DNA from: Nostoc sp. NMS4
GTDB lineage: Bacteria > Cyanobacteriota > Cyanobacteriia > Cyanobacteriales > Nostocaceae
Assembly: GCF_017115095.1 (NCBI RefSeq)
Contig: NZ_JABXKI010000037.1
Location: forward strand, 1 to 41,321
Direction of reading: 5' to 3'
DNA: 41,321 nt
Positions 12,315 to 38,880 of the stretch are shown here, piece by piece; position 1 is the first letter of the stretch, and each line of letters begins with the position of its first letter. The notes under the pieces are model-generated. The model was not told the origin of the DNA and made no database searches. It saw nothing but the letters and a program-made list of their open reading frames with translations. The translations under genes were made by a program, and so were the position numbers.

Positions 12315-12447
12315 CTACGGTGTACACACAAGTCAAATTACCCCCCTTATAAAAAGAAATCTAGTTCCCTCCCCTTTGCAAGGGGAGGGTTAGGGTGGGG
12401 TAAAACCTTAGTTAATCAGCTATTTCAGACTTGTGTGTACACCGTAG
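12315..12447. mobile_element. MITE family A, copy 1 (133 bp)
   Basis: The terminal inverted repeats are CTACGGTGTACACACAAGTC and GACTTGTGTGTACACCGTAG, perfect over 18 bp or more. An 11-bp direct repeat CCTAAAAGGAG flanks both ends exactly (12304-12314 and 12448-12458), the expected target duplication. The inside carries CCCTCCCCTTTGCAAGGGGAGGG, shared with copy 2. There is no transposase, so it is non-autonomous. It lies in the leader between nrtP and narB. Confidence 0.9.
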
Positions 12448-14886: not shown

Positions 14887-15497
14887 GCTGCAAAGTGTCG
14901 CTCCAAAGCGATAATTTATAACCAGCAATAGGTAATTTCGTCAATAATCAATAGTCAATAGTTATTATCAGTTTTTATGACTCTCTAATTTTGACTGTTG
15001 CCAATTACTATATCTAAAGAAGTAAATTGTTAGTAACAAAGAGATTTACTAGACTTAATTTTAGCAATGGATAAATAATAAAAAATAGTTAGAAAACTTA
15101 CAAAGCATAGCAAGGAATGGCACTAAGTTAAGACACAGCCCTTGCCCTGACTGGTTCCCAGCCTGGAGGCTGGGAGGCTCTGCCTCCAGTGGCTTAATGC
15201 TACGGTGTACACAAAAATCGAATTACCCCCCTTAATCCCCCGGATGCATTGGGGGAAGACTGGAAATCTAGTTCCCTCCCCTTTGCAAGGGGAGGGTTAG
15301 GGTGGGGTAAAACCTTGGTTAATCAGCTATTTCAGACTTGTGTGTACACCGTAGGTGACTTAATGAGAGGCAGCAGCCCTCTCGTAATACGTTCCCATCC
15401 TCCAGGCTGGGAACGAGGTAACACAAGACTTTGGGCTTTTAACAAGCGTGCCATTCGCATCAGCAAGTAATCTTTTTCCAATCCTCTAGATTTATCT
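14887..15497. other. Intergenic, nested repeats
   Basis: About 610 bp with no gene. 14887-15130 is plain AT-rich DNA. 15140-15420 holds a TTCCCAGCCTGGAGGCTGGG hairpin repeat, itself split by MITE A copy 2 (see findings). The short frame across 15249-15470 consists only of repeat sequence. Confidence 0.7.
15200..15354. mobile_element. MITE family A, copy 2 (155 bp)
   Basis: It begins CTACGGTGTACACAAAAATC and ends GACTTGTGTGTACACCGTAG. Flanking direct repeats are GTGGCTTAATG (15189-15199) and GTGACTTAATG (15355-15365), 10 of 11 identical. The right 85 bp is almost identical to copy 1. It is inserted in the middle of another palindromic repeat. Confidence 0.9.
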
Positions 15498-36839: not shown

Positions 36840-37018
36840 TCAATTTGGGATTTTAGATTTGGGATTTTGGATTGATTAGTTAGTATAGATACTTCTTTTT
36901 CAATAGAAGAATACCTAATTAATTAACCGCAGTAGACGCTTTGCGGCTACTCTACGAGAACGCTAAGAGCGAACCCGCAGGGTGGCACAGAGAACACAGA
37001 GTCAGAGAAAGGGAGGAA

Positions 37019-38674
37019 TCATCTGTATTTATCTATGGTTCCATTTTCTAAGTATTTATTAAATAACTGGTGTAATTGTGCGATCGCATAGCGATTAGCA
37101 AATTCCCCAAAGGATTGATCGGAATTTAAGCGTTGAATTTTATATACATCTAGCATCCGCTCTATTAATGCAGTTAGTTCGGCAAAAGTTACATATTGAT
37201 ATAGTTCGCGTCCGAATTTGTGCTTGCTGTCACCAACATAAACGTGATAGCCTTCCACAGTTTCATTGTCAGCCTCAATGCTGACACCAAGGAGAGTAAT
37301 ATCACTCTTGCCATGCTGGGCGCAAGATTTTTCGCAGCCAGTGAAGTGGATATTAACTGGGTAATCGATAGTCAGGCGAGTTTTAAGATACTCTGCTAAT
37401 GCCAACGCATGATTTTTGGTATCTGTAGCAGAAGCGGCGCAACCCTTTTTTCCAGAACAGGCAATTAATGCCCCCTTGATGTTGGTTGCTGAAGAATCTA
37501 ATCCTAATAAAGTAATTTGACTTTCGACATCAGCAACCCATTGCTGAGGAATATCTGTAAGGAGCAAATTTTGCCAAGGGGTTAACCTGAGAGTTCCACT
37601 ACCGTATTTTGCTGCTAAATCTGCTAAACCCCGCATCTGTCTACTCTGCAATCGCCCAAGAGGTAAGACGACACCAATGTAAAATAAGCCTTGCTGACGT
37701 TGGGGATGGATGCCAATATGCTGATATTTTTTTCCCTTGCCTTGGTCTACGGTGTACACACATCTTGGTAATGAAGCGCAAACCCTGGATTTACCCCCCT
37801 TATTCCCCCCTTGCAAAGGGGGGAAATATCCGGTTCCCGGTTCTCCCCCTTGCCAAGGGGGAGTTAGAGGGGGTGAGAAGGACTTGTGTGTGTGTGTACA
37901 CCGTAGCTTGCCTTCCTGGGGGAGTAGGTCTTTTCTGATTTCACTGTACAAAAGAGAAAAAGGTAAACGCTGTTCAACTTCCTGAAGATAATTTTCACAG
38001 CCCAAAGTATTCAATAACTCTAAGAGACGGAGCCGCCGCTTATTGGTAGTATGACTATAAGCTAGATAGACATCCGTTAAAGCTGCCAAGACGGGCAAAC
38101 ATTCCTCTGGTGATAATAAAATTCCTGTATCGCTGGGCGGTTGACCCTTCTCGCCGACACTGAGATAGAGGCGAAAATAAACATTACCATTAACTAAGAC
38201 AGCAGCAAAGGCGATATCATTTAAGCGATCGCACACCCGAATTATCCCACCACCATCAAAGCAAACGCTAAATTTTGCCGACAGTCCCGAAAGCGCCGGA
38301 TGTGCAGCAATATAATTATCCCAACCTTCGACAAAAGGGCGAGTGTCGATTAATTCCTGGGGATCGATGCCAGCAGTCGGACTGGTCATAATATTACGGA
38401 TTTGGTCTACAACTGTATTGTCAGAACCCAATCCCATATTTTGTAGGTACTTCAAAACCTCAGCATTTATCCCCGTGCGGATTTCACGAACTTGTAGGTT
38501 AGCTCGATTAGTCACATCTATATAGCCGCCACCATGCTGTTCTGCTATATCTGCGATCGCACAGCACTGCTGACTACTAATAATTCCACCTGGTATTCTA
38601 ATACGAGATAATATACCATCTGCGGCGGGAGTAGCATAAAACAAGCCAGGACAAGTGGCAAATCCAGAAACCAA
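37019..38674 (-). CDS. cobG: CobG-like precorrin-3B synthase with 57-residue MITE insert
   Basis: This 551-residue homologue of nitrite/sulfite reductases has two half-domains (SRIRIPGGIISSQQCCAIAD, then GVVLPLGRLQSRQMRGLADL) and the cluster ligands ACSGKKGC and TGCEKSC (Cys-x5-Cys, Cys-x3-Cys). CobG uses them to form precorrin-3B in the aerobic cobalamin pathway. The frame is open to 38812, but the first 46 codons are riboswitch; a TTG at 38674 lies eight bases after AAGGAG and gives a normal N-terminus (VSGFATCPGLFY). Between QEGK and GKKYQHIG there are 57 residues (from LRCTHTHKS to CVYTVDQGK) encoded by a family A MITE and its target duplication. Without them the protein is 494 residues. 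Function with the insert is unproven. Confidence 0.88.
   Translation of the reverse strand: MVSGFATCPGLFYATPAADGILSRIRIPGGIISSQQCCAIADIAEQHGGGYIDVTNRANLQVREIRTGINAEVLKYLQNMGLGSDNTVVDQIRNIMTSPTAGIDPQELIDTRPFVEGWDNYIAAHPALSGLSAKFSVCFDGGGIIRVCDRLNDIAFAAVLVNGNVYFRLYLSVGEKGQPPSDTGILLSPEECLPVLAALTDVYLAYSHTTNKRRLRLLELLNTLGCENYLQEVEQRLPFSLLYSEIRKDLLPQEGKLRCTHTHKSFSPPLTPPWQGGEPGTGYFPPLQGGNKGGKSRVCASLPRCVYTVDQGKGKKYQHIGIHPQRQQGLFYIGVVLPLGRLQSRQMRGLADLAAKYGSGTLRLTPWQNLLLTDIPQQWVADVESQITLLGLDSSATNIKGALIACSGKKGCAASATDTKNHALALAEYLKTRLTIDYPVNIHFTGCEKSCAQHGKSDITLLGVSIEADNETVEGYHVYVGDSKHKFGRELYQYVTFAELTALIERMLDVYKIQRLNSDQSFGEFANRYAIAQLHQLFNKYLENGTIDKYR
37747..37906. mobile_element. MITE family A, copy 3, inside cobG (160 bp)
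   Basis: The ends are CTACGGTGTACACACATCTT and TTGTGTGTGTGTACACCGTAG. Direct repeats CTTGCCTTGGT (37736-37746) and CTTGCCTTCCT (37907-37917) flank it, 9 of 11 identical. Element plus duplication is 171 bp, a multiple of three, and no stop occurs in the cobG frame. The interior differs from copies 1 and 2 and contains two CCCCCTTGCAAAGGGGG-type palindromes. Confidence 0.92.
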
Positions 38675-38739
38675 ATTTAGAACTCCTTCCCCGTGCAACG
38701 CAGGGAGTAGACGGTGAGTGTGTCTTGAGGACATCCTGA

Positions 38740-38880
38740 GAGTTGGCATTCTGACTTGGGTAATCCCATCACAGCTGCGGCACAGTCCCGGAATTTCACC
38801 GGAGTTTCCCAACTCCCAGCTTGAGTAATTTAGATTTTGTTTAGGTTATAGATTTAAACCAGACATCATCCAGATAATTA
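38740..38880 (-). promoter_or_regulatory. Cobalamin riboswitch upstream of cobG
   Basis: Read on the minus strand, the conserved adenosylcobalamin riboswitch core is present: GGGAAACTCCGGTGAAATTC, then CGGGACTGTGCCGCAGCTGTGATGGG in part, and AGTCAGAATGCC closing the aptamer at about 38745-38756. The 5' boundary is less certain (placed near 38880). It should lower cobG-cobH-cobI expression when cobalamin is plentiful. Its placement shows that the ATG at 38812 lies inside the aptamer and is not the real start. Confidence 0.85.

Follow-up and report, generated by a model that had tools for sequence, protein, structure and literature searches.

Repeated in-frame growth of the CobG interdomain linker by a MITE family in Nostoc

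The DNA analyzed here, henceforth the window, is a 41,321-nucleotide stretch of the genome of Nostoc sp. NMS4 (contig NZ_JABXKI010000037.1, positions 1 to 41,321), which on its reverse strand carries a cobG gene coding for a 551-residue precorrin-3B synthase (37019..38674). In profile searches the window protein matches the CobG family TIGR02435 with 346.6 bits against a cut-off of 234.8, and it displays the nitrite/sulfite reductase fold. The frame is free of stops from a mechanical start at 38812 down to the stop at 37019; however, the upstream part of this longer ORF overlaps an AdoCbl-II (cobalamin) riboswitch in the leader (38736..38819, reverse strand; Rfam RF01689, 43.9 bits against a gathering threshold of 36.5). 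The codon at position 38674 is TTG in all 63 aligned sequences, the window included, this being the set of alignments that reach the start residue (the remaining 16 of the 79 align only further in). Given this conservation and the riboswitch covering the upstream part, the conserved TTG at 38674, rather than the start of the longest ORF, is most likely the true start. By Pfam and NCBIfam matches and a structure model, the protein divides into an N-terminal half (37958..38674) and a C-terminal half (37022..37726), both on the reverse strand. The four cysteines of the CX5C/CX3C motifs (residues 406, 412, 447 and 451), which we take to be the 4Fe-4S ligands by analogy to the nitrite/sulfite reductase family, are all in the C-terminal half, and not distributed over both half-domains as a first-pass annotation of the DNA had it.

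Between the two halves lies a linker (residues 240–316; 37727..37957, reverse strand) that houses a 160-bp MITE at 37747..37906. Its ends, CTACGGTGTACACACA and TGTGTGTACACCGTAG, are perfect 16-bp terminal inverted repeats (TIRs; 16/16 positions, i.e., 100% complementary) separated by 128 nt, and it contains no transposase gene. It is bracketed by two copies of an 11-bp target-site duplication, CTTGCCTTGGT (37736..37746) and CTTGCCTTCCT (37907..37917), which are identical to each other at 9/11 positions. Read on the reverse strand, the element amounts to 53 codons (LRCTHTHK...RCVYTV), and together with one duplication it makes up 171 bp, i.e., 57 codons, across which the cobG frame stays open throughout. 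The ends, allowing up to two mismatches, occur at 91 places on each strand of the element's own genome, whereas the reversed control occurs once on one strand and not at all on the other. It is these counts that identify the element as a MITE and rule out a chance repeat. Thus, the first-pass description of a MITE with perfect inverted ends and an 11-bp duplication, adding 57 stop-free codons to cobG, is borne out in each of these particulars.

To characterize the family further, we surveyed 97 of the 100 end places listed out of a total of 182 (i.e., without C162, C177 and C202), along with 30 loci. In the 268 kb around most of the places listed there are 39 facing pairs, 38 of which have both flanks present; of these, 19 score best with a duplication of 11 bp and seven with one of 10 bp, while the other 12 fit different lengths, some of them poorly. 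Two further copies lie in the window itself, one of 133 bp (12315..12447; target duplication 11/11) and one of 155 bp (15200..15354; 10/11), neither with a long ORF running across it.

An element with the same ends that is capable of coding for its own transposase is present in a related genome (G026; L225:619-2126). It is 1508 bp long, with 19-bp TIRs (CTACGGTGTACACACAAGT) enclosing a single transposase frame. The product matches the IS4-family profile NF033590 with 383.5 bits (cut-off 160) and the Tn5 transposase in the PDB with an E-value of 1.3e-36; its match to the Pfam DDE_Tnp_1 domain (22.0 bits) falls slightly below the cut-off of 23. The terminal repeat of this element also supplies the stop codon of the transposase. 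A second copy of the Tn5-like element, interrupted by another IS, is found in the genome G019. The genome of Nostoc sp. NMS4 gave no full parent transposase; the matches there were two short stretches of 31 and 32 aa, both to its N-terminal 162 residues. In the genome G014, there are elements whose ends stand about 790–970 bp apart, with masked middles. Thus, by its transposase the 1508-bp element belongs with the Tn5/IS50-type members of the IS4 family, whose range of target duplications the length seen here approaches. It is likely the parent of the MITE, from which the cobG copy differs in being devoid of a transposase. Since the ends are shared, the MITE is presumably moved by such a Tn5-like IS4-family transposase. 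The whole assemblage conforms to the Type I, IS-derived MITEs in being short, non-coding and present in many copies, and in having TIRs, a target duplication and an IS with the same ends. A cyanobacterial MITE, Nezha, invites comparison with the cobG element as to type.

We then compared cobG linkers across relatives. The cobG query found matches in all 59 genomes searched, though the distant ones may be nitrite reductases. The linker is readable at 76 of the 79 named loci (without L162, L170 and L175), or in 77 sequences with the window, and its length in these 77 ranges from 45 to 291 bp. Four of the 76 carry a MITE, all with an open frame, whereas the linkers of the remaining 72 showed no MITE end, just as had been anticipated for most Nostoc CobG proteins; empty sites in relatives read DLLPQ-QGKGE-KYQHIG. 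An insertion private to the strain is ruled out by the four relatives with the MITE: In Nostoc cf. edaphicum LEGE 07299 (L097) it occupies the same site as in the window. In Nostoc sp. KVJ20 (L098) it sits in the second hairpin of a palindromic repeat that is itself widespread in these linkers, with a perfect duplication (11/11), and in Desmonostoc muscorum FACHB-395 (L114) in the first hairpin of that repeat (10/11). In Nostoc sp. LEGE 12450 (L112) the left flank is that of one site and the right flank that of the other, with no duplication (4/11); these mixed flanks suggest that the site was later rearranged. Hence, at least three target positions, counting that of the window, have been used in a single linker, and the finding is more general than first annotated, with the same site occupied in LEGE 07299 and other linker sites in three more strains. 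All five MITE alleles (window, L097, L098, L112 and L114) are in frame and stop-free. Those of L098, L112 and L114 are read in another frame, and their peptide differs from that of the window.

The underlying linker repeat (LTPQPPSL...LGERS) was recognized in 23 of the 54 sequences (of the 79) parsed by script, and the genome of Nostoc sp. NMS4 has nine matches to it. In Mojavia pulchra (L138) the last part of the CobG linker is SPIPNPKSQIPNPPN, by its looks a further type of repeat. As a separate observation, in Anabaena subtropica FACHB-260 (L136:2501-4627) CobG and precorrin-8X methylmutase domains, both scoring above cut-off, are found in one frame, a CobG–CobH fusion; similarly long frames are seen at L135, L137, L143 and L148.

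We next considered what the insert does to the protein. An AlphaFold2 model built on an alignment of 32 sequences (mean pLDDT 80.3, pTM 0.79) has most of both halves above a pLDDT of 80, whereas residues 248–314, comprising linker and insert, fall below 50 and have no secondary structure; the insert is thus predicted to lie in a disordered linker between the halves. The open frame extends across both halves at all 78 loci examined for it (L097–L174, leaving out L175). On the branches bearing the MITE, dN/dS is 0.19–0.21 for the window, 0.19–0.25 for L097, 0.18 for L098, 0.21 for L112 and 0.09 for L114, close to the 0.14–0.21 seen on four MITE-free branches; therefore, cobG with the MITE is still under selection. 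These results uphold the first-pass claim that a mobile repeat was taken into the cobG reading frame as a segment in phase with it; by its sequence the gene carrying the insert looks functional. The insert itself behaves differently. Between the window and L097 its dN/dS is 0.64, with 1, 6 and 6 changes at the three codon positions (only 13 changes in all), as against 0.19 and 31, 11 and 68 changes for the cobG core. The higher ratio and the want of a third-position excess point to a frame that is kept while the peptide drifts.

Taken together, these observations favor, with a probability of about 0.8, the interpretation that a non-autonomous MITE entered the disordered linker of CobG and was kept as tolerated in-frame filler, the linker being tolerant of repeated insertion. 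On this interpretation, a MITE with Tn5-like IS4-family ends would have inserted, with an 11-bp duplication, into the unstructured segment between the half-domains. It would have been retained because the bases it added chanced to be a multiple of three in number and to contain no stop. CobG would thereby have gained about 57 disordered residues and would still work; the long form is likely to be made, with the added segment present in the finished protein. Selection would act on the open frame only, with the inserted peptide being filler. The insertions would recur because such a linker tolerates any length. It may also grow by nesting, with the hairpins of the other palindromic repeat common in Nostoc CobG linkers offering themselves as targets.

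A question of history arises within this explanation, and is not opposed to it, concerning the insertion common to the window and L097. In a cobG-core tree of 27 of 29 chosen sequences from the 79 (L101 and L108 were left out), L097 forms a group together with MITE-free strains (100/99 support); the window branches just outside it (90/54). This topology runs counter to the two having simply inherited their common insertion. Constraining the window and L097 to be sisters on the cobG core is rejected by the AU test (p 0.0039), as is a single clade for all five MITE alleles (p 1.6e-93), the latter speaking for recurrence. Moreover, when 19 other copies of the family were compared, six proved closer than the L097 copy to the MITE of the window, and the linker state of L163 is also at odds with the tree. 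The rejected sister grouping, these closer copies and the state of L163 count in favor of separate hits on one site in the two strains, or of one insertion exchanged by recombination. On the other side, the two MITEs sit at the same site in the same orientation and agree with each other at nine columns where the majority of other copies differ. Their duplications have worn in both strains (9/11 in the window, 8/11 in L097), so both insertions look old. The spacer between cobG and cobH (36840–37018) is also largely common to both, with differences at 12 of 150 positions. This spacer aligns poorly with those of the MITE-free neighbors compared, a likeness between the two strains that might hint at exchange or at retained ancestral states. 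We accordingly regard an old insertion with subsequent loss, a local exchange and two hits on one site as possible histories, and give separate hits or exchange somewhat less than an even chance against one old insertion lost later.

The inserted peptide is not confined to CobG. A screen of 53 genomes of the genus with the 53-residue insert peptide yielded matches in 28, and in two of them (G020 and G010) the same MITE frame is read within open frames of 609 and 633 aa that code for RluA-family pseudouridine synthases (PF00849). These frames with the MITE peptide in the linker are located at L272:868-2691 and L275:853-2709; in G034 (end of L285) an RluA-family frame enters the same peptide just where the contig ends. 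The 11-mers flanking the MITE in G010 match at 9/11 positions. Of 12 RluA-family orthologues, nine have readable linkers, two with the MITE and seven without, and in four of the latter a different proline-rich repeat can be seen by eye at the same spot; G034, readable as far as its contig end, is one of the three others. Thus, two unrelated proteins, the window's CobG and an RluA-family enzyme, have the MITE read in the same frame.

The sites chosen by the family also have a distinctive character. Nine of 21 elements with good duplications have targets palindromic at five of six pairs, in contrast to 3.0% of 4200 random 17-mers drawn from the same loci; in a stricter test with a fixed register, 7/15 reach six of eight pairs, against 0.5%. 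Hence, the family prefers palindromes. In cobG this is clear only for L098, with five of the six pairs, whereas L097 and L112 have three, the window two to three and L114, whose site occupies one hairpin arm and does not span the hairpin, two. In two MITE-free relatives, the folding of the linker repeat is much stronger than that of its shuffled versions (z −5.3 and −7.1), while the empty site at L144 shows no advantage over chance (z −0.8). The target preference may add to the recurrence of the linker insertions, and palindrome targeting enters the explanation of cobG as a weak component. A more ambitious reading would have these elements acting as a ratchet: a linker that tolerates insertion first receives a small palindromic repeat, the hairpin of this repeat attracts the MITE of a Tn5-like IS, and the copies that fall in frame persist, so that the same disordered peptide comes to occupy unrelated Nostoc enzymes, with CobG and the RluA-family enzyme as two instances. 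We hold this reading only tentatively, and weight it lower because L098 has the only clearly palindromic site in cobG.

Most copies in the genome of Nostoc sp. NMS4 lie outside genes. When 140 end places (up to three mismatches) were examined by a mechanical criterion for long open frames, three elements were located inside such frames, namely those in cobG, C26 and C94, of which we count two: the C94 element is set aside as it precedes the likely start. Among the 39 facing pairs listed, the cobG pair alone has more than 100 open residues on both sides. In C26 (C26:5500-13000; L269:1706-6205) the element, recognized by one end only and with two mismatches, sits within a single 1500-residue frame, between the two NHLP bacteriocin-export ABC transporter domains; the frame exceeds the cut-offs of TIGR03796 and TIGR03797 alike, and this is an apparent gene fusion through the MITE. 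An 883-residue frame in G059, behind whose element lies what we take to be a RecJ-like gene, was likewise not counted, with the element preceding the likely gene start. In-frame residence is also hard to attain by chance: across 38 elements, only six of 228 combinations of strand and frame, that of the cobG copy included, are stop-free and of the right length.

These facts bear on three other explanations. One could suppose that the insert was kept for a useful peptide or hairpin, serving in the regulation of cobG, in oligomerization or in docking ferredoxin. The repeated insertion into one linker and the use of the same MITE frame in an unrelated enzyme would accord with such a role. We nevertheless consider it improbable in view of the drift of the insert, so unlike the core, its predicted disorder and the different peptide in L098, L112 and L114. 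Less probable still is that RNase III cuts the mRNA at the hairpin of the MITE, giving two half-proteins that assemble. Such cutting has been reported for some other MITEs, and the element does fold strongly as a single strand (z −7.8, with DNA parameters), but a cut message need not keep its frame, and yet all five MITE alleles have kept it, as opposed to the 6/228 expected of arbitrary combinations. The decay of cobG, with an open frame by luck, as chance would allow for about 2.6% of insertions, is very hard to reconcile with the dN/dS of 0.09–0.25 on the MITE branches, the intact cysteines and riboswitch and the open frames at all loci examined.

Returning to the MITE as tolerated filler, precedents for its components exist. 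The linker repeat resembles the small dispersed repeats of cyanobacteria that Elhai reportedly described in 2008, work to which PMC3733652 refers; this is a likeness by description only, namely of short repeats in Nostoc. In Anabaena sp. 90, 15 of 147 MITEs lie in ORFs and are counted as making pseudogenes; it was through pseudogenes that these MITEs were first discovered (PMC3542288). Palindromic elements residing in frame have been described chiefly in Rickettsia: a review presents the Rickettsia palindromic elements (RPEs) as about 150 bp in length and inserted in frame, with a conserved peptide, in unrelated protein genes, nearly half of the copies in the first survey being in ORFs (PMC10969869). 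The present MITE is comparable in residing in frame in cobG, where dN/dS supports selection, and in an RluA-family gene, with the same reading frame used in these unrelated proteins. Unlike the RPEs, it is found in ORFs in only two elements (three by the mechanical test) among the 140 end places, and not in a large share of copies. Moreover, in the present case an IS sharing the MITE's ends has been identified along with an 11-bp duplication. The likeness to the RPEs drawn here is one of behavior. The literature searched, beyond whose reach most subscription papers lay, yielded no in-frame MITE in a cyanobacterial cobG. Thus, the kind of event is itself known, and what is new relative to Rickettsia is that an IS shares the ends of the element, that insertions are nested and that one linker was hit repeatedly. 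What we observe is an interdomain linker that has grown time and again through insertions of one MITE family with an identified likely parent, filtered for frame and in part nested within an older repeat. Since the element and its duplication, the IS that shares its ends, the empty sites, the repeated hits on the linker and a second host enzyme are all visible in a free-living genus, the growth of protein linkers by mobile DNA becomes directly testable.
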